Source: Tychonema sp. LEGE 06208 (GTDB lineage: Bacteria; Cyanobacteriota; Cyanobacteriia; Cyanobacteriales; Microcoleaceae). From it: a stretch of 64,000 bases of DNA. The stretch is taken from the NCBI RefSeq assembly GCF_015207505.1, contig NZ_JADEWT010000019.1:1-64000 (forward strand), given 5' to 3'. Positions 22,368-58,388 of this stretch are shown piece by piece. The position numbers and the translations under genes are program-made. How positions within the stretch are numbered: the first letter of the stretch is position 1; each line of letters opens with the position of its first letter. The notes under the pieces are model-generated. The model saw only the letters and a list, made by a program, of their open reading frames with translations. It did no database searches and was not told where the DNA came from.

Positions 22368-23741
22368 CTAAACAACTTCTGCTTGGGGATGAGAAGAAAC
22401 CGGGAAAAAGCCTCCTTCGCGCATTTCTTGAATACTCTCTTTAACGGCCTGAATGATGCGATCGATGTCTTCATTAGTGTGAGCGGTGGAGAGAAAGCAG
22501 CTACGACCTTCGCCTATGAAAATACGCTTTTCAAGTAAGTGAAAAAGTAGCGGATCTATCTCAACCGAGGCAGCAGCGCGAAATTGCGATCCGAAATTTA
22601 CAAGCCAGACAGAGACTTCATTTTCTTTGAAATAAGCATTCAGGGTTTCAACTAGGTGTGAAGTGCGCTGATTCAACTGCTGCTGAAGGGCTGGGCCTTG
22701 ACTTTTAAGATAGCGCAGCACGGAACGCGCAGCAGCCAGAGCAAGTGGGTGCTTGCAAAAAGTGCCGGCAAAAATTGTTGTTTTTACCTGGGGGGAGGAA
22801 TCATCGCCGTAGTTCCACAAACCGCCGTCAATTTTATCCATATAAGCAGCTTTTCCAGCGATAATTCCAATGGGCATACCGCCCCCGACAATTTTACCGT
22901 AAGTTGCAATATCTGCCTCAATGCCAAACCACCCCTGCGCCCCGCCTTGATGAATTCGGAAACCAGTAACCATTTCATCAAAAATCAGCGCAATTTCTGA
23001 TTCTTTTGTTAATTGTCTGAGTTGGTGGAGAAATTCTTTGGGTTGTAAATCGAGACGGCGGCTTTGCACCGGCTCCACGAGAACCGCCGCTAATTCGTGC
23101 TGATGAGCTTTGATAATTTCCAGCGCGTGAGGGCTGCCGTAATCCAAAACTAAAACATCTTCAATAAAATTAGCGAGAATTCCTGGCGCTTTTGGAATGG
23201 TGCATAAATCGCCATCGATCTTTTTTAGAACTGCGAGAGTTCCGTCAAAATGACCGTGATAAGAACCAGAAAATAAAGCAATTTTATTGCGTTTAGTTGC
23301 CGCTCTAGCTAATCGTAAAGCTGCCATCACCGCTTCCGTGCCCGTATTAGAAAAAGCGACGCGCTCCATTCCCGTTAATTCGCAGATTAATTCCGCAACT
23401 TCTCCGGCAATTTCTGCTTGAGGGCCAATTTGTACACCGCGATCGAGTTGCTCTAATAGGGCTTCTTTAATAAAGGTCGGATTATGACCGAAAAGATTGA
23501 TGCCAAATCCCATCGTGATATCGATGTATTCGTTGCCATCAACATCCCATATTTTAGAGCCAAGCGAGCGATCGGCGACAATGGGATAAAACATCTCCTT
23601 AACGGGAAGGCGAAACCCATCAGAAGCCCGATTATCAGCCAGAACCGGACGGTATTTTTGCGCGAAATTCTTAGATGTCTTTGTGCGATCGGTGTAGCGC
23701 TCTATGAGCGCTTTCATGTGTCTTTGCTGCAATTCGTTCAT
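22368..23741 (-). CDS. Class III PLP aminotransferase of the siderophore cluster
   Basis: 457 residues, related to glutamate-1-semialdehyde aminomutase and to aminotransferase domains embedded in NRPS/PKS proteins (YRPVLADNRAS near the N-terminus). Motifs: SNTGTEAVMAALRLAR, GSYHGHFDG, IFDEMVTGFR, and the PLP lysine in ATYGKIVGGGMPIG. Last gene of the minus-strand cluster, 59 bases after the NRPS that ends in a reductase domain. In myxochelin B synthesis a similar stand-alone enzyme (MxcL) transaminates the aldehyde released by a terminal reductase. I infer the same here, giving a primary amine on the last residue. Confidence 0.88.
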   Translation of the reverse strand: MNELQQRHMKALIERYTDRTKTSKNFAQKYRPVLADNRASDGFRLPVKEMFYPIVADRSLGSKIWDVDGNEYIDITMGFGINLFGHNPTFIKEALLEQLDRGVQIGPQAEIAGEVAELICELTGMERVAFSNTGTEAVMAALRLARAATKRNKIALFSGSYHGHFDGTLAVLKKIDGDLCTIPKAPGILANFIEDVLVLDYGSPHALEIIKAHQHELAAVLVEPVQSRRLDLQPKEFLHQLRQLTKESEIALIFDEMVTGFRIHQGGAQGWFGIEADIATYGKIVGGGMPIGIIAGKAAYMDKIDGGLWNYGDDSSPQVKTTIFAGTFCKHPLALAAARSVLRYLKSQGPALQQQLNQRTSHLVETLNAYFKENEVSVWLVNFGSQFRAAASVEIDPLLFHLLEKRIFIGEGRSCFLSTAHTNEDIDRIIQAVKESIQEMREGGFFPVSSHPQAEVV

Positions 23742-23800
23742 TTTGAAGTCTCCAGAGATTGAGGGAGGTAGGGACGCAATGCTTTGCGCCCTTATAGGTT

Positions 23801-26800
23801 TTAATTGTGGCTACCTATCAAGCCACAATCGGCGAGATAGGAAAGGTAAGTGCGAAACAGATTCGCATCTGCTTGCGGACAGGTGATGGCAGTGGTAGCA
23901 AGTCCATCTAGTGTATTTTTGCAATCGAACTGTAGCGTTCCTGATTGTGACATTTCCGTTTCAGAAACTTTTTCTGAAAAAAGACCGACAAGCGGGTACA
24001 AAGCATTTTCTGGAGAATTTCCAGCCCGATTCACAATTTCTGCTTGCCAAGTCTCATAACAAACCCGCTCGATTGGATAACCGCTTGAGCGAATCCAGCC
24101 CACCAATTCACTTAGGTAGAAAGAATGAGGGTTGACTAAGTGAAAATTTTTCCCGATCGATTCTTTTTGCCTCGACAAGTGAACGATCGCTCGGCTCACA
24201 TAGTCCACTGGCGCTACATTCATCATCCAGTTTCCGTCTGGTACGCATCCTAATTGCACGCAACCGGCAAGCAATCGGTACAGTGAATCGCTGGAATTAC
24301 AAGCACCCGTTTGGCTGTGTCCTGAAATGCGTCCTGGTCGGTAAATGCTAACAGGAATTCCGCGATAGCGCGCGATTTCAACTAACTTTTCTGCTACCCA
24401 TTTACTCTGGGGGTAAGCGCCTTTGAGAACTTCTCCCGGCGTTAGTTCGTCTTGCTCTCCCACAACCTTCACCCCAGATTCCCCCGCTGATGAGAAAACG
24501 GATATAGTAGAAACAAAATGCACGGGTTTGAGCTTAATTTGACTCGCCAGTCGCAGAATTTCTTGAGTTCCCAAAACATTAGAAAGCTTGAGAACCGAAT
24601 AGGGATAAGTGAACTTGACAAACGCGCCATTGTGATAAATGACATCAATTTGGCTTGCCAATTCTCGAAACTGCTCCTCTGAAAGCCCCAAAAGTGGCTG
24701 AGCTAAATCTCCTGCAATCGGGATAATTCGGTAGTGAAGATGCTCGTCGCAAATCGAATAATATTCAAGGCTACTTTGGATGCGCTTCTTGGCTGATTCA
24801 GCATTGTCCGAGCGTACCAAGCAATAAATTTGTGCTTGAGTTTGTAGCAGTAATTCGCGGAGTAAAAAGGCTCCCAGAAATCCTGTTGCTCCCGTTAACA
24901 AGATACGAGTGGGTTCAGCCGTCGGCTCAAAAATTGCAGTTTCAGGGCGGATGACTGGGTCTAGGATAGCTTCAGCATTAATATCGAAATTCGAGGGGCG
25001 ATCGCCCGCTGTGTTGCCCCCTTGTTGCATTTCGATTTTTTCAGCTAAACCCGCTACAGTAGGAGCTTCAAACAAAACGCGCAAAGGCAATTCCACCTGA
25101 AAAGATTCTCGCACTTTGGCTAACAACTGAGTAATCAGTAATGAGTGTCCCCCCAAGTCAAAGAAATTATCGTGAATTCCTACCTTTTTAAGGTTGAGAA
25201 GCTGGCTCCAAATTCCGGCAAGAATCTCCTCACCGGGAGTGCGAGGGCCTACAAACGTATCTGTAAAATTGGCTGCTATGGACGGTGCAGGAAGCGCTTG
25301 AGGGTCTATTTTGCCATTGGGAGTCAGTGGCAGCGCTTTCAGAACCACAAAAGCAGAAGGTATCATGTATTCGGGCAGTTGTTCTTTGAGGAATGAACGG
25401 AGGTTTTCAATCAGTTGTGAGTCCTGAAGGCTGAGTTTTGAGTGAGCAACGATATAGGCGACTAAACGCTGATTTCCCGGTTCATTTTCCTGAAGTACAA
25501 CGACTGCCTCGCGTACAGAGGGATGATGAGACAGCCCCGCCTCAATTTCCCCCAATTCAATGCGGAAACCTCGCAGCTTTACTTGGCGATCGACGCGATC
25601 GATAAATTCTATATTTCCGTCTGGCAAATAGCGAGCTAAGTCGCCAGTTTTGTAAAGTCGAGTTTTCGGTTCCTGAGTCAATGAATTGCAAAGGAATTTT
25701 TCTGCGGTGAGTTCTGGTTGGTTTAGATAGCCGCGAGCCAATCCCGCACCAGCAATATATAATTCACCGGCCACCCCTACAGGAACCGGCTGCAAGTGCG
25801 AATCGAGCAAATAAATCTGCGTGTTGGGTAGCGGGCGACCTAAAGGAACTGTCTGGGAAATGCGATCGCCTTGCATTTTTACCTGATAAGTCAGCACGCC
25901 TACAGTTGTTTCTGTCGGCCCGTAATGGTTGAATATCGAGCAGTCTGGATTGTATTTCTGAATTGTTTCAATTAAATTCCACATCAAAGGCTCACCGCCG
26001 AGAATTAATCGCTTTTTCGGTAAGATTTGCGAGGCGTTAGAATCGCTCAACAAAGCTTTTAAGTGAGAGGGAACAATTTTAAGGCAGTCGATAGAATGTT
26101 GCTGAAAATAAGCGGCAATTGCTTGAGGATCTGTTGCGCGTTCTTGAGAGATGATGTGGAGGCACCCGCCCGAACACAAAGCGGGGAAAATAACAGTGTG
26201 TCCTAAGTCTGCTGCGAAGGTGGAAACGGTGGCAAAATTGGCAGTCGGTGGCAGGTTTAATTTTTCCTGAATGCCGTGCAGGTAATTGAGCAGTTGCCGG
26301 TGTTCAATGGCGACTCCTTTGGGTGTGCCGGTGGAACCGGAAGTGTAAATGACATAAGCTAAATTTTCAGGAGAGAGAGGGGGAGAGGGAGAGGGGGAGA
26401 CAGAGGGAATTTCTGCGTCTAAGCAGACGATCTGTGCTTGAGTTTCAGGCAAATTTTTGAGGAGATGCTGTTGGGTTAACAGCACTGGAGTCCGAGCATT
26501 TTGCAACATCAATGCTAGGCGCTCTTTGGGCATGGCTGGGTCGATCGGTAGGTAGGCGCCACCTGCTTTGAGGATGCCTAGAATTCCAGCGATCGCCTCT
26601 AAAGAGCGATCGACGCAAATGCCGACAATCACCTCTGGTTTTATCCCTAATTGTTGCAAATAATGGGCGATTTGGTTGGCGCGGGCGTTGAGTTCGCTGT
26701 AGGTAATTTGCTGATTTTCACAAACAGCAGCTATCCGGTTCGGCGATCGCTCTGCTTGTTCCTCAAATAGGTGGTGAACGCACTTATCGAGCTGGTAATC

Positions 26801-28141
26801 TGCTGTTGTGCTGTTGAATTCTACTAATAATTGATGTCGGGCGCGATCGCTCAGCATTTCCAGATCCCTGATTGCGGTTTGTGGGTTGCTGGCTGCACTT
26901 TGCACTAAGGCGTAAAATTGCTCTGCCAAGCACCGGATACTTTTGTCTGCAAGGAAGATAGGATCGTAGTGAAACTCAGCGGCGAGCGAGTCATTTTGGC
27001 GGTGGCAAGAGAGTTTAACTTTGAAGCGATCGCCGCACGCATACTGCTTGTCAATTGAAAAAAATACGCCACTAGCCGAATGCTTTTCGAGCTGTTCCTC
27101 AAACTCGAAACCAAATGGAAAGCCGGAAGAGTTGCCTAAATATTCGTGGGAAAAATATTCTTGATACTTGTATGCCTCGCATTCTTCCTGCTGAATTTGC
27201 TGCCAGGTTTCCGCGAAGGAAAAGTTTTCTGTTAGTTGGCTCGACAGCGGTAAAAATTTGGCAAACAGCCCCAGCGCTGGCTCTAGTTCTTCGTATTTTC
27301 GACCGTCGAATGCCACGCCAACAGTGAGCTCTGATTGGCCAATCAGCCGCCAGAGCAAAATTTTCCAGCAAGCGAGCAAGAATGTAGAAAGTGAGGTGTT
27401 GTACTGGCGGGCGATCGCTTCCACTTTTTTTAGCAAAGCTAACTCTAACTTGACCTCAAAAGCTTGGGGAGTAAATTGAGATGGCGCGTTGATTAATCTA
27501 TTTTCAAACGGCAACCTTAAACTCGCTAGCGCCGATAAATCTTGTCTAGTCCAGTATTCTTTGCCCTCCGCCGCTTCCTCATCTTCGAGCAATTCATTTT
27601 GCCATTCGGAAAATTGAACGTATTGTACAACTTCATCGGAAAGTTCTTCGCCGTGAAGGGAGGCAGCATAGCACTGGCTGAGTTCTCGAACCAGATTTTT
27701 TAGTGTGCGACTATCGGCGCACAGTGCTGGTAAACTGACTAGCAAAATATGCCTCTCAGATGAAAGTGTAATTAAAGACAAGCGCCAAACAGGATTGCCC
27801 TCGAAGTTGAATAAAGCGCTCTTTTCTTGCTGAAAAATATCTTCAAGTTTGGCTTCTTGCTCCTGGGGAGTCACTTCACTCAAGTTAACCCAGTTCCACG
27901 AAACAAAGCTATGTTCTGAAATAACTTGTATAGGAATTTTTAGCCCTGGCCTTCGCTGAAAACTGGTTCGGATAATTTCGTGACGCTTACTCACTTTTTC
28001 TAAAGCTTTCTTTAGGTTATCAGTTTGAAGACTTCCCTCGATCAAAATAGCGGATTGAATGCGATAAGCCGGGCTGTCTTGCTGCAACATCCACAGATAT
28101 TTTTGCTGGGGTGAAAGCCGAAATCCATTAATTGTTTGCAT
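23801..28141 (-). CDS. NRPS: Interface-A(Asp)-T-reductase (terminal module)
   Basis: 1446 residues. An N-terminal condensation-fold domain (~1-430) has SLPALCADS where HHxxxDG should be, so it lacks the catalytic histidines; this matches the interface domains known to recruit Asp beta-hydroxylases in siderophore NRPSs. The adenylation domain (~460-950; TSGSTGTPKG at ~604) has pocket residues D-L-T-K-I-G-H-V-G, the aspartate code. The T domain follows (FFDLGGHSLL, ~995). The C-terminal reductase (~1080-1440) has GATGFLG and YPQSK (Tyr/Lys), releasing the chain as an aldehyde (or alcohol). No thioesterase is present. The module is expected to load Asp, have it hydroxylated by the TauD domain of the preceding protein, and terminate synthesis. 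Confidence 0.92.
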   Translation of the reverse strand: MQTINGFRLSPQQKYLWMLQQDSPAYRIQSAILIEGSLQTDNLKKALEKVSKRHEIIRTSFQRRPGLKIPIQVISEHSFVSWNWVNLSEVTPQEQEAKLEDIFQQEKSALFNFEGNPVWRLSLITLSSERHILLVSLPALCADSRTLKNLVRELSQCYAASLHGEELSDEVVQYVQFSEWQNELLEDEEAAEGKEYWTRQDLSALASLRLPFENRLINAPSQFTPQAFEVKLELALLKKVEAIARQYNTSLSTFLLACWKILLWRLIGQSELTVGVAFDGRKYEELEPALGLFAKFLPLSSQLTENFSFAETWQQIQQEECEAYKYQEYFSHEYLGNSSGFPFGFEFEEQLEKHSASGVFFSIDKQYACGDRFKVKLSCHRQNDSLAAEFHYDPIFLADKSIRCLAEQFYALVQSAASNPQTAIRDLEMLSDRARHQLLVEFNSTTADYQLDKCVHHLFEEQAERSPNRIAAVCENQQITYSELNARANQIAHYLQQLGIKPEVIVGICVDRSLEAIAGILGILKAGGAYLPIDPAMPKERLALMLQNARTPVLLTQQHLLKNLPETQAQIVCLDAEIPSVSPSPSPPLSPENLAYVIYTSGSTGTPKGVAIEHRQLLNYLHGIQEKLNLPPTANFATVSTFAADLGHTVIFPALCSGGCLHIISQERATDPQAIAAYFQQHSIDCLKIVPSHLKALLSDSNASQILPKKRLILGGEPLMWNLIETIQKYNPDCSIFNHYGPTETTVGVLTYQVKMQGDRISQTVPLGRPLPNTQIYLLDSHLQPVPVGVAGELYIAGAGLARGYLNQPELTAEKFLCNSLTQEPKTRLYKTGDLARYLPDGNIEFIDRVDRQVKLRGFRIELGEIEAGLSHHPSVREAVVVLQENEPGNQRLVAYIVAHSKLSLQDSQLIENLRSFLKEQLPEYMIPSAFVVLKALPLTPNGKIDPQALPAPSIAANFTDTFVGPRTPGEEILAGIWSQLLNLKKVGIHDNFFDLGGHSLLITQLLAKVRESFQVELPLRVLFEAPTVAGLAEKIEMQQGGNTAGDRPSNFDINAEAILDPVIRPETAIFEPTAEPTRILLTGATGFLGAFLLRELLLQTQAQIYCLVRSDNAESAKKRIQSSLEYYSICDEHLHYRIIPIAGDLAQPLLGLSEEQFRELASQIDVIYHNGAFVKFTYPYSVLKLSNVLGTQEILRLASQIKLKPVHFVSTISVFSSAGESGVKVVGEQDELTPGEVLKGAYPQSKWVAEKLVEIARYRGIPVSIYRPGRISGHSQTGACNSSDSLYRLLAGCVQLGCVPDGNWMMNVAPVDYVSRAIVHLSRQKESIGKNFHLVNPHSFYLSELVGWIRSSGYPIERVCYETWQAEIVNRAGNSPENALYPLVGLFSEKVSETEMSQSGTLQFDCKNTLDGLATTAITCPQADANLFRTYLSYLADCGLIGSHN

Positions 28142-28209
28142 TGTTTTTATTTCTCAAAGCACTACTTTATTCTCGTTTCCAGGTTCTGCGTGGCAGAGAT
28201 GAGAGGGAA

Positions 28210-31200
28210 TTAAATTCCTAATTCAGGAATCATTTCGCCCATCGCTACAACAATTTTTCGCGAACCTATAAATGGATTGCGACTGTGAGCGACAAGCATA
28301 TTATCTAGCATTAAGATGTCTCCTGCTTGCCAGGGAAAACTAACAGCAGCTTGCGCGTACACTGCTTGAATTTCTTCCATTACCGAATCTTCAATAGGAG
28401 TGCCGTCACCGTAATAGACATTGCGGGGGAGATTCTCTTCTCCAAAAACAGAGAGCAAGGAAGCGCGGGTTGCCGCATCTAAGCAGGAAATGTGGTGCAA
28501 GGGAAGTTGGTTAAAAAATACCATCTCTCCAGTTTTTTGGTGCTTGGCAATTGCGGGGCGAATTTTGCGAGTTCTCAAATTATTTCCTGCTTTCCACTCA
28601 AATTTCATCCCAGCTTGCCGGCAGTATTCCTCAACCACCGATTTGTCTTCCGTTTTGAAAAAATCTTTCCAGCTTACATCCAGTCCGTCTGTGTAGTTAC
28701 GGACGTACATAATTTGCTTTTGGGCAAATTTTTCTCTGAGTTTCGGGTCTAGCAACTGGTAAATTTTACGGCAGTCAACAATCGGCGTTTCTCCGCCTTG
28801 TTGCGCTGGCTGAACGCAGAAAAACCAGATTTTCATCGGCCAGCGGTGCAGGTGCGAACTCTCGCTGTGAAACAAGATAGCTTGATCTGCGGGGTAAGGA
28901 GTTGAACCGTAAACTTTTGGGCTAACTCCTTCCCGGGGCAAATCCCCGTACTCCCCAAATAATTCAGGACAAATTGCGTGAGCAAACTGCTCGAAAGCAG
29001 AAACCACAGGCTCAATGAATCCTCGAAACAGAATTGCTCCGTGCTGTAGCAATTTTGCTTCTATCAATTCGCGGTTGTTCTTTGCCCAGTCTGCAAGATC
29101 GACATTGTTAATAGCGGGTTTGATGACTAAGGGGAATAGTTCCCCAGGCTGGAGAAGCTCGGTTTTTATCAATTCGCCTTCAGGCAGAGCAACCTCTTTC
29201 GGTTTAATGCTCTTAAACTTGCTAAAATTTAGTTTTTCGCGCTTTAGTTCTTGCATGGTTTGTTTTTGTTTTTCAGCTTCCGTGAGAATTTCCAAGTTTT
29301 TTAACCGAGTTTCTGGCTGCGCTACAATGCTGCTGAGGAGGGTTTCAAAGCGATTTGACATTTGCTCGATGGTGGCGCAGTCGAAAAGACCTGCATTATA
29401 TTTCCAACTACCGGCAATTCCCCGCTCGGTTTCCCCCACGAAGAGAACTAAATCAAATTTGGCAATTTCGCTGTCAACTTCTATGGGAGTCAAAGTTAAA
29501 TTGCCCAGCTTTAAAGCAGGCATCGGCATATTTTGCATGACGAATAAAACTTGAAAGATTGGTGTCTGATTTAGACTGCGATCGGGGCGCAATTCCTCCA
29601 CTAATTTGTCGAAGGGTAAATCTTGATGAGCGTAGGCTTTTAAAGTGACTTCGCGCACCCTTGCGAGCAATTCGCAAAAAGTGGGATTGCCACTCAAATC
29701 AGTCCGCAAAACGAGGATATTGACAAAGAAGCCTATTAAAGCTTCTGTCTCAATTTGGGTGCGATTTGCCAGGTCTGTGCCGACAATGATGTCATCCTGA
29801 TTTGTATAGCGATATAGCAGCGTTTCTAAAGCGGCTAGCATCGTCATAAATAGGGTGGCATTTTCTTGACGACTCAGCTTATTGAGGGCTTGCGAAAGGG
29901 TTGGGGAAAGCTGGAACGGTTGAAGGGCAGCCCGATAGGTAGAAACATTAGAGCGCGGTTGTTTGGTAGGCAGTTGCAGCACTGGCAAAGGATTGCCTAA
30001 GTGTTGCTTCCAATAGGCAAGTTTTGTTTCTAAAACTTCCCCAGAAAGCCAGTTTCGCTGCCAGACGGCATAATCGACGTATTGAAGGGGAAGTTCGGAA
30101 AGTGGGGAAGCTTTGCCAGCACAAAAAGCTTCGTAGAGTGCAGCCATTTCCCGCACTATTACCCCTAGGGACCAGCCATCTGCAACGATGTGATGAATGG
30201 TTAGCAATAATATAGATTCTGTCTCGTTTAACTGTAGCAAAGTGACGCGCATTAATGGCCATTTTGCTAAGTCAAAAGGTTGTCGCGCTTCTTCAAGAGC
30301 GAGTCGCATCGCTTCGGTTTCCCGCTGCGAGTGAGGGAATTCCTGCAAATCTATGACTGAAAGCGCGAAAGTCGGGGAGGAAATAATCGTTTGAATCGAT
30401 CGCCCTTCCACTGTGTTAAAAATTGTCCGCAAGGCTTCGTGGCGATCGATAATTGTTTGGAAACTGCGCTGTAATGCTGTCACGTCGATCGCACCTTTCA
30501 AGCGCACGGCGGCTGGAATATTGTACGCTGGATCGCCCGGTTGCAATTGATCGACGAACCAGAGCCGCTGTTGTGCAAAGGAAAGGGGCAATTCTCCCTC
30601 CCGCGATGCGCGATCGATGGGGGGTGCTTTCAGTGTTTGCTCGGCGCGATATTGCAAGAGGCTTTCGGTGACAGTTGCGACGGTAGGCGATTCAAAAAGA
30701 GAGCGCAAAGGTACTTCAACTTGAAAAGCTTCTCGCAGGCGGGCGATCGCCTGAGTAGCCAGCAATGAATGACCTCCTAATTCAAAGAAGTTATCGTGAA
30801 TGCCAACTCGCTCTAAACCGAGAACTTCCGCCCAAATTTCTGCTATTAATTGCTCCTCGGGAGTTCGAGGATCGGTAAAATTGCTCTCGAATTCCGCTGT
30901 GTTTGTGTCAGGTGCTCTTAGCGATCGCCGATCGATTTTTCCATTAGGCGTTAAAGGCATGGCTTCCAGCAGCACAAACGCTGACGGTATCATGTACTGC
31001 GGCAGTTTTTGTTTGAGAAAGACGCGCAAGTGATTAATAAATTCTGAATTCGTAGGAGCAGTGTCCCCCTGTCCGCCCCGGAGTGCTGAGTTAACAACGA
31101 TATAAGCTACTAAACGCTTGTCGCCCGGATTGTCCTCTCGAACGAGTGCGATCGCTTCTCGCACGGCTGGGTATTGGCTGAGTACCGCTTCAATTTCGCC

Positions 31201-37196: not shown

Positions 37197-37218
37197 TTCT
37201 AAAGTTCCTTTAATAAGC

Positions 37219-38268: not shown

Positions 38269-38332
38269 GATTTTGGCAAATTGGGTGAAAAATTTATCCC
38301 TTTTTTTCGAGAAAACATGAGAGATTGAGCCA

Positions 38333-44600: not shown

Positions 44601-44929
44601 GCTTTTAGGAACGTTTCTAGCTGCTCTTGTTGTTCGGAGACCGAGAGCGATCGCCAGTCCATCTGCTGCCAAGATAATGCAGCCTGCTTACGCACTGCTT
44701 GCACGGGTTCTTTCAAATTTTCCCACACGAAACAAGTCCGCAAAATGGGATGTCGCTCTACAACTTTTTGCCAACTATTTCTAAACGCAGAAACATTGAG
44801 ATCGCCGCGCAAGACGCATAGCAGTTGCCCGAAATATACGCCTGATTCTGGCTGGTAAAGCGAATGAAAGAGAATGCCCTGCTGCGCTGGGGAGAGGGGA
44901 TAAAAATCTTCGATATTGCCATTGATCAT
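41657..44929 (-). CDS. NRPS: C-A(beta-Ala)-T
   Basis: 1090 residues. The C domain (~1-440) begins FYPLSPAQQGILFHSLY and has HHLVLDG (~145). This subtype often follows an epimerase module and accepts a D-configured donor, fitting the E domain in the previous protein. The A domain (~460-970; TSGSTGTPKG ~616) has V235-D236 instead of the usual D235 (FVDSVWE) and the full code V-D-W-V-I-S-L-A-D, the known beta-alanine signature. Loss of Asp235 is expected for a substrate without an alpha-amino group. T domain FFDLGGHSLMATQ (~1016). Starts 1 base after the upstream NRPS stop. Confidence 0.9.
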   Translation of the reverse strand: MINGNIEDFYPLSPAQQGILFHSLYQPESGVYFGQLLCVLRGDLNVSAFRNSWQKVVERHPILRTCFVWENLKEPVQAVRKQAALSWQQMDWRSLSVSEQQEQLETFLKADRAQGFDLTSAPLIRIALAQLETDTFQFILSHHHLVLDGWSLAIVLEEVFAFYQAFCQGEELHLKRPRPYRDYIAWLHQQDLSAAKSFWRQTLKGFAAPTAIARGNIVARNRLESSGEQQVIFSATATAALQSAARQHQLTLNTLVQAAWALLLSRYSGEEDVVFGTVVSGRPPDLMGAESVVGLFVNPLPVRVKIDPQDVILSCLKQLQSQQVEARQYEYSPLIEVQGWSEVPRSLPLFESFVVFENYPSDASLQEKIENLKVENIRSLETTNYPLTVMAMPGAALTLKIIFDRSCFEDSAIARMLGHLQTLLEGMAANPHQKLSNLSLLSATEQQQLLVKWNDTQADYPKNASIHELFAAQTERTPDAVAAICENEQLTYRELNAKANQIAHYLQSLGVKPEVLVGICLERSLSMLVAILGILKVGAAYVPLDPAYPQERRSFMLADAKVPVLLTQKNLLETLPEHSAKVVCIDAEWQEISRESDRNPAVKVPAENLAYVLYTSGSTGTPKGVLGTHRGTVNRCFWNPYPFIEADICCQKTSLNFVDSVWEIFAPLLHGLPTVIIRDRAVKDINQFLQTLSKQNVTRLVLVPSLLRAILDSFPDLDRRLPQLKYWICSGETLPLELGQQFREQMPQRVLINLYGSSEVAADVTWYDATHCVEKVPIGRPIANTQIYLLDRNLQPVPIGIPGEIYVGGDGLAQGYLNRPELTSEKFISNPFGQEKLNFLGNSHQKVLFKTGDIGCYLPNGNIEFLGRGDSQVKIRGFRIELGEIEAALSQHSSVSTAAVLLQENTPGSQRLVAYLVPNSEFRNQHPELVSELRSFLKHKLPDYMVPSAFVLLDALPLTPNGKIDRLALSQKCDYVCDETAFTEPQTPTEKEIAEIWTALLGLEKVGTNQNFFDLGGHSLMATQLISRVRSCFGVELAMCDFFAAPTIQNLAELIEEEILAKADANQIDKLLDFLEKSEGESAQTVMLTE

Positions 44930-44930
44930 A

Positions 44931-49847: not shown

Positions 49848-52800
49848 TTAGCGCAAAGATGACAGTGACCTGCGGTACGCCGATCGCGAAACGGGAACGA
49901 TCGCGGGTTCTTCAACGGCCGCATTTTTGTTCTTGGCATCATTAATCTTTTCTGCAAGTACAGCGAGCGATCGTCCTGCAAAAATATCGCACAAAGGCAA
50001 TTCTATCTGACAAGATTCTCGGATCTTTGCTGTTAATTGAATTGCCAGCAGCGAATTTCCTCCTAGTTCAAAAAAGTTATCGGTAATACTTAACTGCTCA
50101 ATGCCGAGAACCTCACAGCAAATTCTCGCTAACATTTCCTCAATAGGAGTGCGAGGCGCGACAAAAATCTTTGCTTCTGGAATTGCGGCATTCGGTGCGG
50201 GCAGAGCCTTACGGTTAACTTTGCCGTTCGCCGAAAGTGGCAGCGCGTCCAGAATTATCAATGCAGACGGCACCATATAATCGGGCAGTTTTTCTCTCAG
50301 GAATTGGCGCAATTCTTCAACCGCAGGGGCAGCCTTTTGTTGTGGAACGATATACCCTACTAAGCGCTTTTGACTGTGATTTTCTCCGAATGCGGTGACA
50401 ATGGATGCTTTGACTGCTGGGTGCTCGTTCAAACCAGCTTCAATTTCTCCTGCTTCGATGCGGAATCCTCGAATTTTAAGGCGGAAATCTTCTCGCCCTA
50501 AAAATTCGATATTGCCGTCAGGGAGGAAGCGCCCTAAATCTCCCGTTCGGTACAAGCGATCGCCCGTGACGGGGTGCGTGAGGCAACTGGCGCGAGTTTT
50601 TTCTTCATTCCGCCAGTATCCTTTTGTCAGTCCAACTCCGGCACAGCACATCTCGCCGGCCACCCAGACGGGACAGTCTTCGAGCCTTTCATTCAAAATG
50701 TAATAGCGTGTATTGGCGATCGGCTTGCCGTAGGGAATGCTTTTCCAAGAAGAATCAACAGTTTCTACCGGATACCAAATATTCCAAAGGGTAGTTTCGG
50801 TTGGCCCGCCGACACTGACAACGCGACATTCACGGACGATCGCCCTTAACCTCTCAGGGAGCGTTATCGGTATCCAATCTCCACCGAGAAACGCCCAGCG
50901 CAAACACTCCGGCAACACTTCAGAACGTCCTGCAGCGTAATCGAGCAGCATTTCCATCATCGGGGGAACCGAGTTCCAAATGGTGACGCGCTCTTTTACC
51001 ATCAATTGCGCCCAGTGAGCGGGGTCTAGCCGTTGTGCGGCATCGGGAATGACGATCGCTCCCCCGGCTGCTAGGATGCCGAAAATATCGTAAACGGACA
51101 TATCGTGGTGCAGTGCGGTGACTGCGATCGCGCGATCGCACTCGGCCACATTAAACACTTGGTTGGTCTGAGCGATCGCATTGACTGCACCTCGGTGCGC
51201 GATCGCCACGCCTTTCGGCAAACCAGTTGAGCCAGAAGTATAAATCACATAAGCTAAATCTTCCGGTTGCTGAACTGATTCCAAAGCTTCGTTGCTTTCG
51301 GCCACCAATTCCTCAGTATCGAGACAAATTCGCCGCACATTTTCCGGCCATTCCAATCGCTGATTTAACTGAGATTGCGTCAAAACAATCTCAACTTCGC
51401 CATTTTCCAGCAAATACCACAGCCGCTCTTTTGGCAGCGCCGCATCTACGGGCAAATAAGCTGCCCCGGATGCGAGAATGCCCAGCACAGCGACGATTTG
51501 CTCCCATCCTTTTTCCATGACGACGGCAACCAACTGGTTAGGGCGAGCTCCCAGCTTCCGCAATCGGTGAGCGACTTGATTCGATCGCAGATACAATTCT
51601 TGATAACTCAGAGTGCGCGTTGAAGTAATGATGGCGGGTTCGTGCGATCGCGACGCGACTTTCTCAGCAAACAATTCGTGCAGCAATACATCAGGAATGG
51701 GTGCCTCAATGCTGTTAGTAAAGGCTTGCTGAAACTGCACCGTTTTCTGCCAAGTTTCCTCTTCATTGGCGAGGCGTTGCAACAGGCGGCAATAGGCGTC
51801 AAACATATCGTCAATCATCCCTGGCGGGAAGAGTTCTTCCACTGCATCCCAGCTAAAAGAAAGCCCCTGGGCGGTTTCGGTAAATTGCGCGTCGATCCAA
51901 ACTTGCGGAGTTTGACCGATAATGTGCACCAATTCTCCCAATTCTTGAATGAGTGAAAAGATAGAAGTATCTTCCCCTGGCGCGTTTTGCGGATCGATCG
52001 TAAATACAACTGGCATCAACGCTGCCGTTGTACCTTGCGCTTGGGCGAGTTCTCGCAAAACGCGCACGCCGCTGACATATTGGTGTTCTAAATCTTGCCA
52101 AAGTTGTTCTTGCAATCGCTTGGCTCGTACTTCAAAACTTTCTCGCTTGGAGTTATCTATTTCTAGCAGAGTAAATGACGCAAATTCTCCGATAATTTCC
52201 TCAACTTGAGGATGGAGGGGAAGGCGATTAAAGCGCGGCACGTTGAGGGTAAACCGAGGTGTTTTGCTCCACAGGGAAAGCACCTCTGCATAGGCGGCGA
52301 GCAATAAACCCGTAGGAGTGAGGCTGGCGCGAGCTATGCGCGTTTTGAGTCGCTGCCAAGTTGAGAAATCTAAGCGATCGCTCCAACGTTTAAATCGCGG
52401 CTGCGTTAAGGAATTCGGGTGTTTGGCGAGGGGCAATTCCGGCGCTGGTGGCAGGGTTTTGAGGCGATTGCGCCAGTAATCTAAGGATTGCTGGTAAAAT
52501 GGGGAGTTTTCTAAGGCGATCGCAGCTAACACGCAGTCGCGGAAAGACAGTTGCAAGGGCGCGTGAAGCGGAGCTATCCCGTAGGGAATCGCAGTATTGG
52601 GATTGCGGTAAAGTTTTACCAAATCGCCAAACAAAATTTGAAAACTCCAGCCGTCTATGCACAAGGCGTCAATGCTGATGTGGAGGCGGATGCGGCGATC
52701 GCTTATTTGCGAAGCGCAAATCTCAAACAGCGGCCAGCGATCGAGCGGCAGCACTTGGTGAGAAAGGCGATCGCGAATTGCTTCGAGTTGTTCGCCGGCA

Positions 52801-55800
52801 ACTTTTGGATCGAGCGATCGCAAATCCAAAACCTCAATTTTATAAGCGGGCACGTTTTCCAGAATTTGCTGCTGTCCGTTCGGAAGTACGATCGCCCGCA
52901 GCATATCGTGACGCTCTACAACTCGCTGCCATGCGAGGCTAAACCGCTCTAAATCTAACTCGTCGCTCTCAATTTCTACATAACCGTGAATCGCAACATT
53001 GCCCATTTCAAAGAAGCTATTTCTCCCGATCCAGTACGCCTGCTGCATTTCGTTGAGCGGAAAGGGTTGGTAGCGATTTTGAGCATCGGGGGCGATTGTC
53101 GGCAGTAATTTAATAGGTTCTTGATATGGCTCGCTTTTAGTTTCCGCGATCGCAACTGCCAAACTGGCGACAGTGGGGGATTGAAACAAGCAGCGCAGCG
53201 ATAGCTCGACTTGAAAGCGATCGCGCACCTTGGCAATCAGTTGAGTTGCCAGCAAAGAGTGACCTCCCAACTCAAAGAAATTGTCATTGATTCCCACCTG
53301 TTTTAAACCCAGAACCTCCGCCCAAATCTCCGCTAATACTTGTTCTTCTAAAGTCTGAGGAGCGATAAAATCCGCATCTGAACTGTTAGTTTCCGGTGCG
53401 GGAAGTGCCTTAAAATCCACCTTGCCGTTTGGCGTCAGTGGCATCGCTTCTAAAAACATGAAACTGGCAGGAACCATATAATCTGGCAGTTTTTTCTGGA
53501 GAAAAGAGCGCAGATTTTTAATCAGTGCAGAGTTGCCAATGCTGAGTGCTGAATTTAAAACGAGGTAGGCGATTAAGCGCTTTCCGGCTGAATCTTCGTC
53601 ACGCGCCAAAATGACGGCTTCTTGCACGTCTGGATGTTGGCTGAGTGCAGATTCGATTTCTCCCAACTCTATGCGGAAACCGCGAATTTTTACTTGGCGA
53701 TCGGTGCGATCGAGAAATTCTAAGTTGCCATCGGGGAGATAGCGGACTAAATCGCCTGTTTTGTAAAGGCGATCGCCTTGCACTTTGCTAAAAAGATCGG
53801 GAATAAATTTTTCTCGATTCAACTCTGAACGGTTAATATATCCTCTCGCAACCCCTGCACCCCCGATATAAAGTTCGCCGGGAACTCCGATCGGAACAGG
53901 TTGCAAATTAGCATCGAGTACATAGGTGCGGGCATTTGGAATTGGACGACCAATCGGCAGAGATTTTGCAGTAGAAATATTTGCCGATAACTGGCACCAC
54001 GTCGCGGAAATCGTTGTTTCTGTGGGGCCATAAGCATTAACAAGCCGCACTTTTTCTGATACGCACTTTTGCCACCGATCTAGCGACGCTGGAAGCGCTG
54101 CTTCTCCACCAATAATTGTCAAGCGCACTGACGGGGGAAATTCTTGGGTTTTGGTACTGAGCATGGCTGTGAATTCGTGCCAGTAAGCTGTCGGCAAATT
54201 CAGGACGGTGATTTCCCACTCCCGGCACTTTTGTAGGAAGGAAGAAATACTGTCTGACATGGAATTTTCGCGCAGTACCAGAGTTGCGCCTCGCGTTAAA
54301 CAGGGATAAATTTCTTCAGCACTGACATCGAAGCTGAGGGAAGCAAATTGAAGAATGCGATCGTTCGCTTCAATGCCATATTCGACACTTGCAGCCTGCG
54401 TATAATTCGCCAAAGAGTGATGCTGCACCATAACCCCTTTTGGCTTGCCAGTAGACCCGGATGTATAGATAATATAAGCGAGGTTTTCTGGCCCAACGAC
54501 GCTATCAGGATTTGACTGATGTTGTGGAGAAATTTTCTCCCATTCTGCATCCAAGCAAATCACAGTAATCTTCTGCGCAGGTAAGTTTGCTGCTAATTGT
54601 GTTTGCGTTAGCAGTACCTGAACTCCAGCGTCTTCTAACATGAAATTAAGACGTTCTTTGGAATAATTCGGATCGAGAGGTAAATAAGCGCCACCTGCTT
54701 TTAATACGCCTAAGATTCCGACGATCGCATCGAGCGATCGCTCCAGATAAACGCCGACTATGGCATCGGGTTTTACGCCGAAAGAGTGCAGGTAATGTGC
54801 GAGTTGATTCGCGCGATTATTTAATTCTTGGTAAGTCAAACTTTGACATTCAAATTGCACCGCAACAGCATCAGGGGTTTTCGCAGCCTGCGCTTCAAAC
54901 AAACGGTGAACGCACCCATTTTGGGAGTAATTTATCCCAGTATTATTCCACTCAAAGAGTAGTTGCTGGCGTTCTGCTTCTGCAAGCATGGGCAAATCTG
55001 ACAGTCGTGCGGAAGAATTGGCAACGATACTTTCTAATAAGTTCTGAAAGTGTCCTGCCATTCGCGCAATAGTGGTCGGTGAAAATAAGTCTATGCTGTA
55101 TTCAAACCACCCTCTAATACCTGTTGCTGTCGCTTCTAATTCCAGCGTTAAATCGAAATTGGCTGTGCCGCTGTGAATCTGTTGGCAGTTCAGGCTTAAA
55201 CCCGGCAATTCTAAGGCGAATTCAGAGGCATTTTGAAAGGCAAACATCACCTGAAATAAAGGCGAGTGACTTAAATCTCGATTCGGCTGCAATTCTTCTA
55301 CCAACTTCTCAAACGGTACATCTTGATGCGCGTAAGCGCCTAATGCAACCTCTCGCACTCGACTCAGCAACTCTCGAAAAGTGGGATTTCCATTTAAGTC
55401 AGTCCGCAGGACTAAAGTATTGACAAAAAATCCAATTAATGATTCGGTTTCGCTGCTGTTGCGGTTGGCAATTGGTGAACCGACGAGGATATCTTCTTGC
55501 CCCGTGTAGCGGTAAAGCAGTGTTTTGAATGCTGCCAGCAATGTCATAAAGAAAGTAGTTTTTTCGCGGCGACTCAATTGTCTAATTGCCTCGGTTAAGT
55601 GCTCTGGCAATTCAAATAATTGCCGACCTCCCTTGTAGCTTTGAACAGCGGGACGAGAAAAGTCTGTTGGTAAATTTAGAACCGCTGCGCTGCCACTTAA
55701 CTGCTGTTTCCAGTAAGTAAGTTGAGTTTCTAATATTTCTCCCTGCATTTGTTGGCGCTGCCAAGTTGCAAAGTCTGCATACTGAATTGGCAGCGGTGGA

Positions 55801-58388
55801 ATCGCGACTAAATTCTTATTAGATAATCCTTCATAAAATGCAGCTATTTCCCGTAAAAATACGCCCAAAGACCACCCGTCAAAAATGATATGATGGGCGG
55901 ACAAGAGCAGGGTATGTTCTATTTCAGATAGGTGCAGAAGCTTGGCGCGGAGCAGATTTGGCTGAGTCAAATCAAAGGGCGATTGTGCTTCTTGCAACGA
56001 CAGTTCTTGCGCTGCTTTTTCGCGTTTCTCCGGGGAGCAATAGCTCAAATCTATCAGCGGTAATGGGAAACTTTTTGCATCAGAAATAATTTGTACTTGG
56101 GCTTTTTCTCCACCAGCAAACGCAGTTCTTAAAATCTCGTGTCGCTCGATAATTTTCTCAATACTTTGTCTGAGCGTTTCTGCATTGAGTTGTCCTGTAA
56201 TCCGAACTGCACCGCAGAGGTTATAGAAGGGGTTTCCTGGTTCCAATTGGTCAAAGAACCATAAGCGCTCTTGGGCAAAAGAAAGGGGGATGTTTTGTAG
56301 GCGAGAAACTGCCTGAATAGACTCAAGTGTCGGCGCTTCTGCCAATTTTTCTAAAATTTTGGCTGTTAGTTGAGCAAGGCTTAATTTCTCGAATAAGTCT
56401 TCTATTGATAAAGCAATTTTGAGATCCGTTTCGAGCTGATTTTTTAATTCAAATACCGCCAATGAATCGAAACCCAAGTTACTAAAATCCTGTGCCGATG
56501 GGATTTGGGAAACGCTGACTTTCAGCACCCTCGCTACCTGCTGTCGCAAATAGGTTTCTAACTGTGCCTGCCGTTGTTCTAACTCGGCTGTCAGCAGATT
56601 TTCTCGCGTCAGGCGATTCTCTATTTCAACAAAATTAGATATCTCTAAAATGCTACTGGCGACAACTTCCAATTTGTTAGCTAGAAAGTCAGCACAGGCG
56701 GCGCGACGTTGAATTTTACCGCTGGTCGTTTTGGGAATGCTTCCGGGCTTAATCAGCACTACTCCATAGGCTTGTATTTCATATTCGATCGCAATGCGGG
56801 ATCGGATGGCGCTGATAATTTCCTCGCTATTGGTCGGTGTTTTGCGAGATTCTATTTCTTGGACAATAAGGAGTTGTTCAATGCCTGCAATTTTTACGGA
56901 AAATGCCGCGATCGCCCCTAGCCGCAAACTGGGATGGCTCCGTTCTGCTGTTCTTTCTAGATCTTGGGGATAAAGATTGCGACCTCGGATGATAATCAAA
57001 TCTTTGAGTCGCCCTGTAATAAACAGTTCTCCGTCGCGTAAAAAGCCTAAATCTCCGGTTCGCAAAAATGGCCCTTCGCTGGTATCTGAAAGATATGCTT
57101 GAAAGGTTTTTTCTGTCTCTTCTGGGCGATTCCAATAGCCTCGCGCAACTGTGAGGCCGGCTACCCAAATTTCTCCGACTTCCTGCGGCTGGCATGGCGT
57201 CAGAGTTTCGGGATTGACGATCGCAACTTTAGTCCCAAATTCAGGGAAACCGCAGCCGACTAAAGTTCTCGCGCCCCCTTCGCCTGTTGATGCTTCTACA
57301 ATATGATTATTTTCCAGCGCCCCAGCATCAACAGCTAAGAAAGTCGGTGTTGTCCCGCTGCGAACCGTGGCAATTTTTAGCGTGGTTTCTGCCATTCCGT
57401 AAGCAGGACAAAAGGCATCCGCCTGAAAACCGCAGGGTTCAAAAGCTTTGGTAAATCGTTCTAGGGTTTCTTTGTGAATCGGTTCTGCGCCGTTATAGGC
57501 CACGCGCCAACTACTCAAGTCGAGCATTTTTTGGCCATCGCCCAAGATTTTGCTAGCACACAAATCGTAAGCAAAATTTGGCCCGCCGCTGTGGGTAGCT
57601 TTGTAGTGTGAAATCGCTTCCAACCAGCACATCGGGTTCTGAATAAACGCGGCTGGCGGCATGAAGTAAGAGGGAATTCCCAGATACAAAGGTTTGAGCA
57701 ATCCGTCAATTAACCCCATGTCGTGAAAGGGGGGAAGCCACGTTACCGCAACGCTTTCGGCATCGTGGTGAAAGCCTCGGTGAATGTATTCGATGTTGTA
57801 CAAAACGTTGGCGTGGCTCACCATGACGCCTTTGGGGGTGGAGGTTGAGCCGGAAGTGTACTGAAGATAAGCCACTTCGTCGGGATGGATGGCTGGCTGC
57901 TGCCACTTTTCGCCGTCATCGGAAAGCGCCTCTGCACTCAGCCAGTGCATCGCTTTGAGTTCCGGGGCTTGCTCGCACAGTTGCTCTAAATTTTCTAGGT
58001 GTCGTGTGGGAGCGATCGCAACTGTTGCTCCTGCGTCTTTGGCGATGGCGCTAATTTTCCCTAAATTCCGTTTCCGCTTCGGCGGATAGAGGGGAACGGC
58101 GATAACTTTGGCGTACAAACATCCGAAAAAGGCGGCGAGATAGTCCAATCCTGGCGGGAAAAGCAGTAAGGCTCGTTCGCCAGTCAGCCCCAATTTCTGA
58201 AGTCGCACGGCGTGCGATCGGGCGATCGCATCTAACTGTCGATAAGTCAAACTGGCGGTTTCAGTTTTTCCGTCTAACAGAAATGTATATTTCTGCTCTG
58301 GTTGGTGTAGCGCTCTGTTTTGTAGGAGTTCCACCAAATTGGTACAACTTTCGGTGAGTTGGTTTCCCTTAATGCTTGCGTCACTCAT
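49848..58388 (-). CDS. FAAL-ACP-C-A-T-Cy-A(Cys-like)-T initiating NRPS
   Basis: About 2846 residues. A fatty acyl-AMP ligase (~1-600) has YTSGSTSTPKGVMVSHAN, WLPPFHDMGLIDG and RGRNLYPQDLE. ACP (LGFDSLAVFEL, ~640). C1 with HHIIFDGWS (~832). A1 (TSGSTGKPKG ~1311) with pocket code D-V-E-N-I-G-A-I-S, which I cannot assign; Glu at the third position hints at a basic side chain. T1 (FFELGGHSLLATQ ~1706). A heterocyclization domain opens PFPLNEMQQAYWIGR and has DALCIDGWS (DxxxxDxxS, ~1911). A2 has code D-M-Y-N-F-G-V-L-W, close to the Cys code D-L-Y-N-L-S-L-I-W. T2 (FFELGGNSLLAIQ ~2776). It acylates residue 1 and forms a thiazoline (oxazoline if Ser). I use ATG 58388; a TTG at 58442 extends the frame. 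Confidence 0.92.
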   Translation of the reverse strand: MSDASIKGNQLTESCTNLVELLQNRALHQPEQKYTFLLDGKTETASLTYRQLDAIARSHAVRLQKLGLTGERALLLFPPGLDYLAAFFGCLYAKVIAVPLYPPKRKRNLGKISAIAKDAGATVAIAPTRHLENLEQLCEQAPELKAMHWLSAEALSDDGEKWQQPAIHPDEVAYLQYTSGSTSTPKGVMVSHANVLYNIEYIHRGFHHDAESVAVTWLPPFHDMGLIDGLLKPLYLGIPSYFMPPAAFIQNPMCWLEAISHYKATHSGGPNFAYDLCASKILGDGQKMLDLSSWRVAYNGAEPIHKETLERFTKAFEPCGFQADAFCPAYGMAETTLKIATVRSGTTPTFLAVDAGALENNHIVEASTGEGGARTLVGCGFPEFGTKVAIVNPETLTPCQPQEVGEIWVAGLTVARGYWNRPEETEKTFQAYLSDTSEGPFLRTGDLGFLRDGELFITGRLKDLIIIRGRNLYPQDLERTAERSHPSLRLGAIAAFSVKIAGIEQLLIVQEIESRKTPTNSEEIISAIRSRIAIEYEIQAYGVVLIKPGSIPKTTSGKIQRRAACADFLANKLEVVASSILEISNFVEIENRLTRENLLTAELEQRQAQLETYLRQQVARVLKVSVSQIPSAQDFSNLGFDSLAVFELKNQLETDLKIALSIEDLFEKLSLAQLTAKILEKLAEAPTLESIQAVSRLQNIPLSFAQERLWFFDQLEPGNPFYNLCGAVRITGQLNAETLRQSIEKIIERHEILRTAFAGGEKAQVQIISDAKSFPLPLIDLSYCSPEKREKAAQELSLQEAQSPFDLTQPNLLRAKLLHLSEIEHTLLLSAHHIIFDGWSLGVFLREIAAFYEGLSNKNLVAIPPLPIQYADFATWQRQQMQGEILETQLTYWKQQLSGSAAVLNLPTDFSRPAVQSYKGGRQLFELPEHLTEAIRQLSRREKTTFFMTLLAAFKTLLYRYTGQEDILVGSPIANRNSSETESLIGFFVNTLVLRTDLNGNPTFRELLSRVREVALGAYAHQDVPFEKLVEELQPNRDLSHSPLFQVMFAFQNASEFALELPGLSLNCQQIHSGTANFDLTLELEATATGIRGWFEYSIDLFSPTTIARMAGHFQNLLESIVANSSARLSDLPMLAEAERQQLLFEWNNTGINYSQNGCVHRLFEAQAAKTPDAVAVQFECQSLTYQELNNRANQLAHYLHSFGVKPDAIVGVYLERSLDAIVGILGVLKAGGAYLPLDPNYSKERLNFMLEDAGVQVLLTQTQLAANLPAQKITVICLDAEWEKISPQHQSNPDSVVGPENLAYIIYTSGSTGKPKGVMVQHHSLANYTQAASVEYGIEANDRILQFASLSFDVSAEEIYPCLTRGATLVLRENSMSDSISSFLQKCREWEITVLNLPTAYWHEFTAMLSTKTQEFPPSVRLTIIGGEAALPASLDRWQKCVSEKVRLVNAYGPTETTISATWCQLSANISTAKSLPIGRPIPNARTYVLDANLQPVPIGVPGELYIGGAGVARGYINRSELNREKFIPDLFSKVQGDRLYKTGDLVRYLPDGNLEFLDRTDRQVKIRGFRIELGEIESALSQHPDVQEAVILARDEDSAGKRLIAYLVLNSALSIGNSALIKNLRSFLQKKLPDYMVPASFMFLEAMPLTPNGKVDFKALPAPETNSSDADFIAPQTLEEQVLAEIWAEVLGLKQVGINDNFFELGGHSLLATQLIAKVRDRFQVELSLRCLFQSPTVASLAVAIAETKSEPYQEPIKLLPTIAPDAQNRYQPFPLNEMQQAYWIGRNSFFEMGNVAIHGYVEIESDELDLERFSLAWQRVVERHDMLRAIVLPNGQQQILENVPAYKIEVLDLRSLDPKVAGEQLEAIRDRLSHQVLPLDRWPLFEICASQISDRRIRLHISIDALCIDGWSFQILFGDLVKLYRNPNTAIPYGIAPLHAPLQLSFRDCVLAAIALENSPFYQQSLDYWRNRLKTLPPAPELPLAKHPNSLTQPRFKRWSDRLDFSTWQRLKTRIARASLTPTGLLLAAYAEVLSLWSKTPRFTLNVPRFNRLPLHPQVEEIIGEFASFTLLEIDNSKRESFEVRAKRLQEQLWQDLEHQYVSGVRVLRELAQAQGTTAALMPVVFTIDPQNAPGEDTSIFSLIQELGELVHIIGQTPQVWIDAQFTETAQGLSFSWDAVEELFPPGMIDDMFDAYCRLLQRLANEEETWQKTVQFQQAFTNSIEAPIPDVLLHELFAEKVASRSHEPAIITSTRTLSYQELYLRSNQVAHRLRKLGARPNQLVAVVMEKGWEQIVAVLGILASGAAYLPVDAALPKERLWYLLENGEVEIVLTQSQLNQRLEWPENVRRICLDTEELVAESNEALESVQQPEDLAYVIYTSGSTGLPKGVAIAHRGAVNAIAQTNQVFNVAECDRAIAVTALHHDMSVYDIFGILAAGGAIVIPDAAQRLDPAHWAQLMVKERVTIWNSVPPMMEMLLDYAAGRSEVLPECLRWAFLGGDWIPITLPERLRAIVRECRVVSVGGPTETTLWNIWYPVETVDSSWKSIPYGKPIANTRYYILNERLEDCPVWVAGEMCCAGVGLTKGYWRNEEKTRASCLTHPVTGDRLYRTGDLGRFLPDGNIEFLGREDFRLKIRGFRIEAGEIEAGLNEHPAVKASIVTAFGENHSQKRLVGYIVPQQKAAPAVEELRQFLREKLPDYMVPSALIILDALPLSANGKVNRKALPAPNAAIPEAKIFVAPRTPIEEMLARICCEVLGIEQLSITDNFFELGGNSLLAIQLTAKIRESCQIELPLCDIFAGRSLAVLAEKINDAKNKNAAVEEPAIVPVSRSAYRRSLSSLR
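52561..52592 (-). repeat. Dispersed repeat A, in frame inside the Cy domain
   Basis: Minus strand reads GCGATTCCCTACGGGATAGC then TCCGCTTCACGC. Translated as AIPYGIAPLHA just before the conserved LQLSFRDCVLAA segment of the heterocyclization domain. Nearly identical to the intergenic copy at 16,171. Confidence 0.85.

Follow-up and report, generated by a model that had tools for sequence, protein, structure and literature searches.

The window, that is, the whole stretch of 64,000 nucleotides that was analysed, carries a seven-module collinear nonribosomal peptide synthetase (NRPS) line on the minus strand. Pfam scans and domain mapping place it between 58442 and 23801; a class-III aminotransferase gene comes next and runs to 22368. 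The contig extends past the window to 71174, and genes of that extension are listed with those of the window.

22368-23741, minus strand: class-III aminotransferase, predicted to aminate the released aldehyde (nearest solved relative, the mycosubtilin synthase subunit A aminotransferase)
23801-28141, minus strand: NRPS P6, interface-type domain-A7(Asp)-T-thioester reductase, the reductase at about 23822-24904 (Pfam, domain mapping)
26825-28117, minus strand: C-like domain of Asp module 7, interface-type, reading PALCADS with HHxxxDG gone
28210-33966, minus strand: NRPS P5, C-A6(Gly)-T-C-TauD (Pfam, domain mapping)
28237-29169, minus strand: fused TauD-type Asp beta-hydroxylase (Pfam, motif check)
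29257-30594, minus strand: the other C domain of P5, which keeps HHxxxDG and would condense Gly with the final beta-hydroxyaspartate (OHAsp) (motif table)
33963-37262, minus strand: NRPS P4, interface-type C-like domain-A5(Asp)-T (Pfam, domain mapping, motif table)
35862-37166, minus strand: C-like domain of Asp module 5, interface-type, reading SALIADS with HHxxxDG gone
37219-38268, minus strand: stand-alone TauD-type Asp beta-hydroxylase that keeps the HxE...H and Arg motifs
38333-39883, minus strand: stand-alone C domain, intact HHxxxDG, predicted to form the beta-Ala-OHAsp bond (Pfam, motif table)
39870-41558, minus strand: PanP-type aspartate 1-decarboxylase (PLP), beta-alanine supply (NCBIfam TIGR03799)
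41657-44929, minus strand: NRPS P3, C-A4(beta-Ala)-T (Pfam, domain mapping)
44931-49643, minus strand: NRPS P2, C-A3(Thr)-T-E (Pfam, domain mapping, motif table)
49848-58442, minus strand: NRPS P1, FAAL-ACP-C-A1-T-Cy-A2-T, ATG start likely near 58388 (Pfam, domain mapping)
50223-51770, minus strand: A2, Cys-type variant (code DMYNFGVLWK)
51813-53090, minus strand: heterocyclization (Cy) domain, DALCIDGWS replacing HHxxxDG
53373-54899, minus strand: A1, ApnA-A1-type pocket (Arg, Tyr, Lys), from alignment with the nearest solved pocket and Table 2 of PMC5311044
56658-58343, minus strand: FAAL domain, predicted to load a fatty acyl group onto the next ACP (Pfam; solved relatives FadD32, FadD23 and FadD28)
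58838-58852, no strand: AT-rich inverted repeat TGCAATTAATTTGCA, lying between the divergently transcribed genes; similar repeats with altered arms occur in relatives
59195-61990, plus strand: TonB-dependent receptor with AMIN domain (Pfam)
62533-63714, plus strand: PepSY_TM protein (Pfam)
63912-65198, beyond the window: MFS protein, next after the PepSY gene
65608-67695, minus strand, beyond the window: penicillin-amidase-family acylase
67791-68876, beyond the window (G000:C109 of the same genome): MORN-repeat gene beside the acylase

The initial annotation had described an intact acylated-heptapeptide line, and its seven modules, FAAL, E domain, two TauD hydroxylases, terminal reductase and divergent TonB and PepSY genes were all recovered by Pfam and domain mapping. 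That inventory was correct but omitted three genes within 22368-58388: the aminotransferase, the decarboxylase and the gene for the stand-alone C domain. The best solved entries for the FAAL domain carry the labels polyketide synthase (7r7g) and saframycin Mx1 synthetase B. No ketosynthase was matched by Pfam in the line, including the interval between FAAL-ACP and C-A1, and the acyl chain should therefore be amide-linked to residue 1. No tRNA was found within the window. Downstream of the cluster, an NB-ARC ATPase gene adjoins a Uma2-type nuclease gene (17664-19713); the window also contains likely biotin genes (5897-9018; a methyltransferase, a radical SAM protein with a BATS domain and a class-III aminotransferase) and two neighbouring adenylate/guanylate cyclase genes, one of them encoding a Tll0287-like sensor domain (9202-12422).

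Specificity codes of the adenylation domains were read by alignment columns, yielding DVENIGAISK for A1, the Cys-type variant DMYNFGVLWK for A2, DFWNIGMVHK for A3, VDWVISLADK for A4, DILQLGLIWK for A6 and the identical code DLTKIGHVGK for A5 and A7. An A4 reading with residues 330/331 taken by eye, VDWVISLDVK, was replaced by the alignment-column code. Following code tables, we take these codes to mean Thr (A3), beta-Ala (A4), Asp (A5 and A7), Gly (A6) and a Cys-type residue (A2). For A1 and A2 the code is a variant that has no exact counterpart, and among six same-genus clusters the position-2 code is DLYNLSLIWK in three and that of the window in the other three. The identical procedure, applied to the cyanochelin B cluster (AP017310), returned Cys-Phe-Gly-Asp-Ser-Asp-Gly, which matches the published order of residues as given in the accessible text of PMC12628792; because these codes reproduce that order, the Cys, Gly and Asp readings are experimentally anchored.

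The nearest solved pocket to A1 is that of ApnA A1, from the anabaenopeptin synthetase, with which it shares the pattern DVE-[DSN]-IGA-I. In Table 2 of PMC5311044, DVEDIGAIEK is listed for Arg, DVESIGAIAK for Arg and Tyr, and DVEDIGGVEK for Arg and Lys, and the same source ties positions 278 and 331 to bispecificity. The window's code differs from DVEDIGAIEK and DVESIGAIAK at precisely these two positions, where it has the combination of N at 278 and S at 331 that is absent from that table. Our best guess from the pocket is that X1 is Arg, perhaps also Tyr or Lys, so that the residue originally left unassigned now has a candidate pocket. Thr is predicted to be the D isomer because P2 contains an E domain. 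Codes, Cy and E domains and the two hydroxylases thus back the order proposed in the initial annotation from Cys onward, and they support a predicted peptide X1-Cys(thiazoline)-D-Thr-beta-Ala-OHAsp-Gly-OHAsp.

Both Asp modules open with a C-like domain that has lost HHxxxDG. An interface domain, reportedly described by Reitz et al. in 2019, is said to be a C-like domain without HHxxxDG that sits beside an amino-acid beta-hydroxylase. When the motif was surveyed in 87 C-superfamily domains of nine clusters, HH was lost in all 18 of the Asp-module openers and kept in 61 domains, the remaining eight being Cy domains with their own D-x4-D motif. By motif, all 18 openers are HH-less C-like domains beside a hydroxylase, and the window's Asp-module C-like domains fit the interface type. 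Among the 18 are the two from the cyanochelin B cluster, in which both Asp modules are known to produce OHAsp. The opposite assignment, with the stand-alone C gene and P5's second C as the interface domains, was dropped because both keep HHxxxDG. As the Asp-module C-like domains have lost HH, these two intact domains likely form the peptide bonds: in each Asp module the HH-less domain would dock the hydroxylase and the intact upstream C domain would carry out condensation.

The hydroxylases are conserved at their active sites, with H-x-E, the distal His and Arg kept in all 61 hydroxylase domains inspected. In the hydroxylase tree, 23 of the 26 fused enzymes, including those of the window and of NIES-3755 (the cyanochelin B producer), fall in one supported set; the three outside it come from Nostoc carneum and two Rhizonema. 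A split with support 97/98 places the stand-alone enzymes of the window and NIES-3755 on the same side, apart from the fused ones, the NIES-3755 enzyme being a long branch whose exact placement is unsure. According to the accessible text of PMC12628792, fused hydroxylases give 3S and stand-alone hydroxylases 3R products. From this rule, and because neither Asp module here has an E domain, we predict the first OHAsp to be 2S,3R and the second, before reduction, 2S,3S.

The beta-alanine spacer appears to have its own supply. The PanP gene scores 637.6 bits against the curated TIGR03799 cut-off of 606.1 and so belongs to this family; the cluster's own PanP can provide beta-Ala. Across 14 clusters with a readable row of modules, a beta-Ala code and a PanP gene are both present in eight (the window, G002, G011, G012, G018, G020, G078 and G068) and both absent from six (G077, G071, G091, G095, G074 and NIES-3755), PanP having been looked for within cluster regions; six of the eight positive clusters belong to one genus, and these rows are not independent. 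The count excludes G042, in which some modules are PKS and the row was read in part, the fragments G003, G015, G032, G072 and G075, and also G050, G060 and G083.

The closest characterized pathway is that of cyanochelin B (Leptolyngbya sp. NIES-3755 plasmid 2, AP017310.1). Both lines begin with a FAAL, specify a thiazoline, pair a fused with a stand-alone hydroxylase for their two OHAsp units, end in a reductase and have a TonB receptor gene facing the other way; the best matches are 39-58% identical, and both follow the register thiazoline-x-x-OHAsp-x-OHAsp. The fatty acyl start and the two Asp modules with one beta-hydroxylase each, spaced as in cyanochelin B, bear out the class assignment made in the initial annotation. 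Cyanochelin B differs, as described in the accessible text of PMC12628792, in its PKS-built, carbon-linked tail, its Phe-Gly and Ser spacers and its ethanolamine end, and its cluster has an E domain in the second Asp module. The window instead specifies an amide-linked tail, an extra residue X1, a D-Thr-beta-Ala spacer, Gly between the OHAsp units and an OHAsp that is itself reduced, with an aminotransferase present and an acylase nearby. A PKS-built tail is lacking here and may not be class-defining.

The cluster is not unique to the window's genome. A search of that genome for ribosomal RNA gave no match, and its genus is assigned through named relatives. Relatives are found in M. vaginatus HSN003 (G020), Microcoleus sp. 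FACHB-61 (G012) and FACHB-DQ6 (G002), and further in G011 and G018; in these five same-genus genomes the hydroxylase is 95-97% identical and the gene order is that of the window, which argues against a chance assembly of genes. All share with the window the beta-Ala, both OHAsp, the Cys-type A2 with Cy, PanP, the receptor, PepSY, MFS and the acylase; they differ in residues 1, 3 and 6 and in having an aminotransferase or an aldo-keto reductase as the end enzyme. The six clusters together encode six distinct peptides, in which the Cys-type code with Cy at position 2, beta-Ala at position 4 and Asp at positions 5 and 7 are constant, and position 1 has five codes, position 3 three and position 6 two. 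The change of residue is local: in G002 and G018 the domain that stands in for the Gly-type A6 (58% identity) is flanked by a C domain with 96% and a T domain with 97-98% identity. Separately, HSN003 has a methyltransferase inserted in Thr module 3 (L037 7927-13872), which may give N-methyl-Thr.

Uptake and export genes follow on the other side of the line. The receptor scores 220.2 bits against the TonB-siderophore model, slightly below its cut-off of 223.5, and the PepSY_TM protein is perhaps a ferric reductase or transport helper. Past the PepSY gene the order is MFS, acylase, MORN-repeat gene and TonB gene. Receptor, PepSY and MFS keep their order in all six Microcoleus clusters, with the acylase behind them in the five read that far (in G002 it lies just beyond the sequence read), and the MORN-repeat gene is kept in 5/5 Microcoleus clusters where the stretch was read. 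Export would fall to the MFS protein, and handling of the iron complex to the receptor together with the PepSY protein. The inverted repeat at 58838-58852 is a weak candidate for a Fur-like regulator site.

The acylase raises the question of whether the product keeps its tail. Its nearest relatives are cephalosporin acylases (630 bits), followed by PvdQ (200 bits), and its score of 227.7 bits against the curated PvdQ model, with a cut-off of 950, places it outside that family. In a motif-directed search of 14 regions, every acylase showed GSN[GA]WAIAP, the motif of the Ntn serine; the N-terminus is hydrophobic by eye and the protein secreted-looking, which we counted as the Ntn serine and exported precursor known from PvdQ. 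In the pyoverdine pathway, synthesis begins with an acyl start on PvdL and PvdQ deacylates the product. The present pathway resembles it in having an amide-linked acyl start and an acylase from that Ntn superfamily; peptide and chelators are unrelated, and the acylase here lies below the PvdQ cut-off. By this analogy the secreted-looking acylase would cut off the fatty tail after export, at about even odds, the tail serving as an export or membrane handle that is later removed as by PvdQ. The word acylated in the initial annotation may thus apply to the precursor only.

That the tail is instead retained, as in an ordinary acylated cyanochelin, with the acylase a quorum-quenching enzyme (acting on acyl-homoserine lactones) or a housekeeping neighbour, has in our judgement somewhat less than an even chance. 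We counted genomes by two matches, a hydroxylase above 300 bits and an acylase with 42% identity or more, whether across most of its length or in fragments. Among 98 genomes, 17 had both, eight the hydroxylase only, seven the acylase only and 66 neither, figures whose significance is inflated by shared descent and linkage; the acylase is thus missing from 8 of the 25 genomes with a strong hydroxylase match and present in 7 of the 73 others. Within the genus it occurs in 7/9 genomes with a strong hydroxylase and in 0/20 of the rest. A strict link, suggested by an acylase in 14/14 cluster genomes against 0/7 others, came from a hand-picked set and was given up for the weaker 98-genome count. Hydroxylase-bearing genomes in which no acylase was found include G003 (74% complete), G032 (85% complete), G019, G046, G058 and G062. 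None was found in G050 either, where the line starts with a FAAL gene followed by a KS-AT-T-aminotransferase-methyltransferase-C protein, and G060, which carries a like-sized aminotransferase-bearing ORF, has only a 29% homologue.

The acylase lies near the NRPS, on changing sides, in G077, G078, G068, G095, G042, G074, G071 and G072, and its persistence near the cluster across several genera despite changes of side and strand speaks against an unrelated neighbour. So does G083, where acylase and MFS genes adjoin a FAAL NRPS with an amide-linked start and the search for a hydroxylase had no match. (The ORF next to the FAAL NRPS in G083:C59 stays open for 10,835 residues and extends past the sequence read.) The acylase is far from the cluster, about 21 kb, in G091; acylase and hydroxylase are on separate contigs in G100-G103 and G104, and on another replicon or megabases apart in Nostoc carneum (G105). 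Because the acylase lies away from the hydroxylase genes in these six additional genomes, we gave more weight to retention of the tail, which is also favoured by the similarity to cephalosporin acylases over PvdQ and by cyanochelin B, which keeps its tail according to the accessible text of PMC12628792. The tail of cyanochelin B is, however, carbon-linked, and an acylase could not cut it; none was found on its plasmid, the replicon that was searched. The acylase thus goes with amide-linked FAAL starts in most cases but not in all.

Removal of the tail could have a further consequence for iron binding. Beside the two OHAsp units, a third iron-binding pair is not obvious, because residue 1 varies freely. 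Bacitracin has an aminothiazoline end that binds metal. In a tentative proposal, which we consider rather unlikely, the tail is a removable mask: once the acylase has exposed the amine of residue 1, this amine and the adjacent thiazoline nitrogen would form the third bidentate ligand. An amine-thiazoline ligand would explain why Cy and Cys are constant at position 2 and why residue 1, whose side chain would not be needed, is free to change, even to Gly. If true, the siderophore would stay at the membrane, incomplete as long as it is inside the cell, and trimming would complete the chelator. Such unmasking cannot be the acylase's only role, since the starts read in the acylase-bearing clusters G068, G071, G091, G095 and G074 are not X1-thiazoline.

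At the end of the line, the initial annotation was right about the last Asp and its hydroxylase, but the OHAsp would not be left as such, since a thioester reductase and then an aminotransferase come after it. The aminotransferase adjoins the reductase in four of eight genomes searched whole (the window, G002, G020 and G077) and directly follows it also in G071, G068 and G074. In G011, G012, G018 and G042 an aldo-keto reductase takes its place and no aminotransferase is found there; these are the four of 14 genomes searched that have the enzyme, always at the post-reductase place. D-Y-K-H is the catalytic set of aldo-keto reductases, and it is visible by eye in the three Microcoleus enzymes. 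No cluster read holds both genes. In G078, G095 and NIES-3755 the reductase has neither gene beside it, and G091 gave no match to a reductase. The reductase would free an aldehyde, which the adjacent aminotransferase would convert to a primary amine and, in the relatives, the aldo-keto reductase to an alcohol; the last carboxyl would thus be reduced and probably end as an amine here and an alcohol there. Some reductases may go further unaided, because cyanochelin B has an alcohol end with neither neighbour gene. In G068 the last module (G068:C2 13250-19024) has the code DSALIAEVWK, which we take to be His-type, with an upstream hydroxylase, E domain, reductase and aminotransferase, perhaps giving a reduced beta-hydroxyhistidine end.

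It is improbable that the aminotransferase makes a precursor, such as a diamino acid, or a mycosubtilin-like beta-amino fatty acid instead of acting on the aldehyde. Its nearest solved relative is indeed the mycosubtilin synthase enzyme, and in G050 an aminotransferase domain lies within the ketosynthase-bearing protein that follows the FAAL gene; the window's line, however, has no matched ketosynthase, and its aminotransferase gene stands directly after the reductase module, where relatives exchange it for an aldo-keto reductase. G011 and the window's own genome each have, besides distant class-III enzymes, an extra homologue (51-52%) within a larger ORF elsewhere. Amination of the released aldehyde accordingly remains our preferred reading of the aminotransferase. 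Softer metals favour a thiazoline with an adjacent nitrogen donor, an arrangement that the product may offer. A metallophore for Cu or Zn, not mainly Fe(III), is nevertheless quite unlikely: the cyanobacterial lusichelins chelate copper and iron in the accessible account of PMC12210259, but two OHAsp units, a receptor near the siderophore-model cut-off and the cyanochelin B register favour iron.

We therefore regard the window, with a probability of roughly 0.75, as a complete cyanochelin-class siderophore pathway including tailoring, end-group and uptake steps as proposed, with tail removal at about even odds. We infer the chemistry, residue identities, deacylation and iron binding of its product from the observed genes and domains, specificity codes, lost motifs, exchanged genes and co-occurrence. 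FAAL would load a fatty acid that is then amide-linked to X1, Cys would be cyclised to the thiazoline, and D-Thr, beta-Ala from the cluster's PanP, OHAsp, Gly and OHAsp would follow. The compound class is already known as cyanochelins. A GTDB-wide scan already uses such cyanobacterial Asp hydroxylases as markers, according to the accessible text of PMC12971057, and similar clusters have therefore probably been detected automatically. No published description of the scaffold, of the exchange between aminotransferase and aldo-keto reductase or of the acylase link was found in the siderophore, cyanochelin, interface-domain, Microcoleus and PvdQ literature, covered mostly as titles and the beginnings of abstracts, with many journals outside that coverage.

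Whether an aminotransferase or an aldo-keto reductase follows the reductase seems to set the end group of these siderophores. The six same-genus clusters form a natural residue-exchange set in which the thiazoline, the beta-Ala spacer and both OHAsp are fixed. In soil-crust cyanobacteria, two putative siderophore clusters are transcribed at night according to the accessible text of PMC8602731. Microcoleus builds desert soil crusts, and light-driven release of iron from such a siderophore could affect the whole community.
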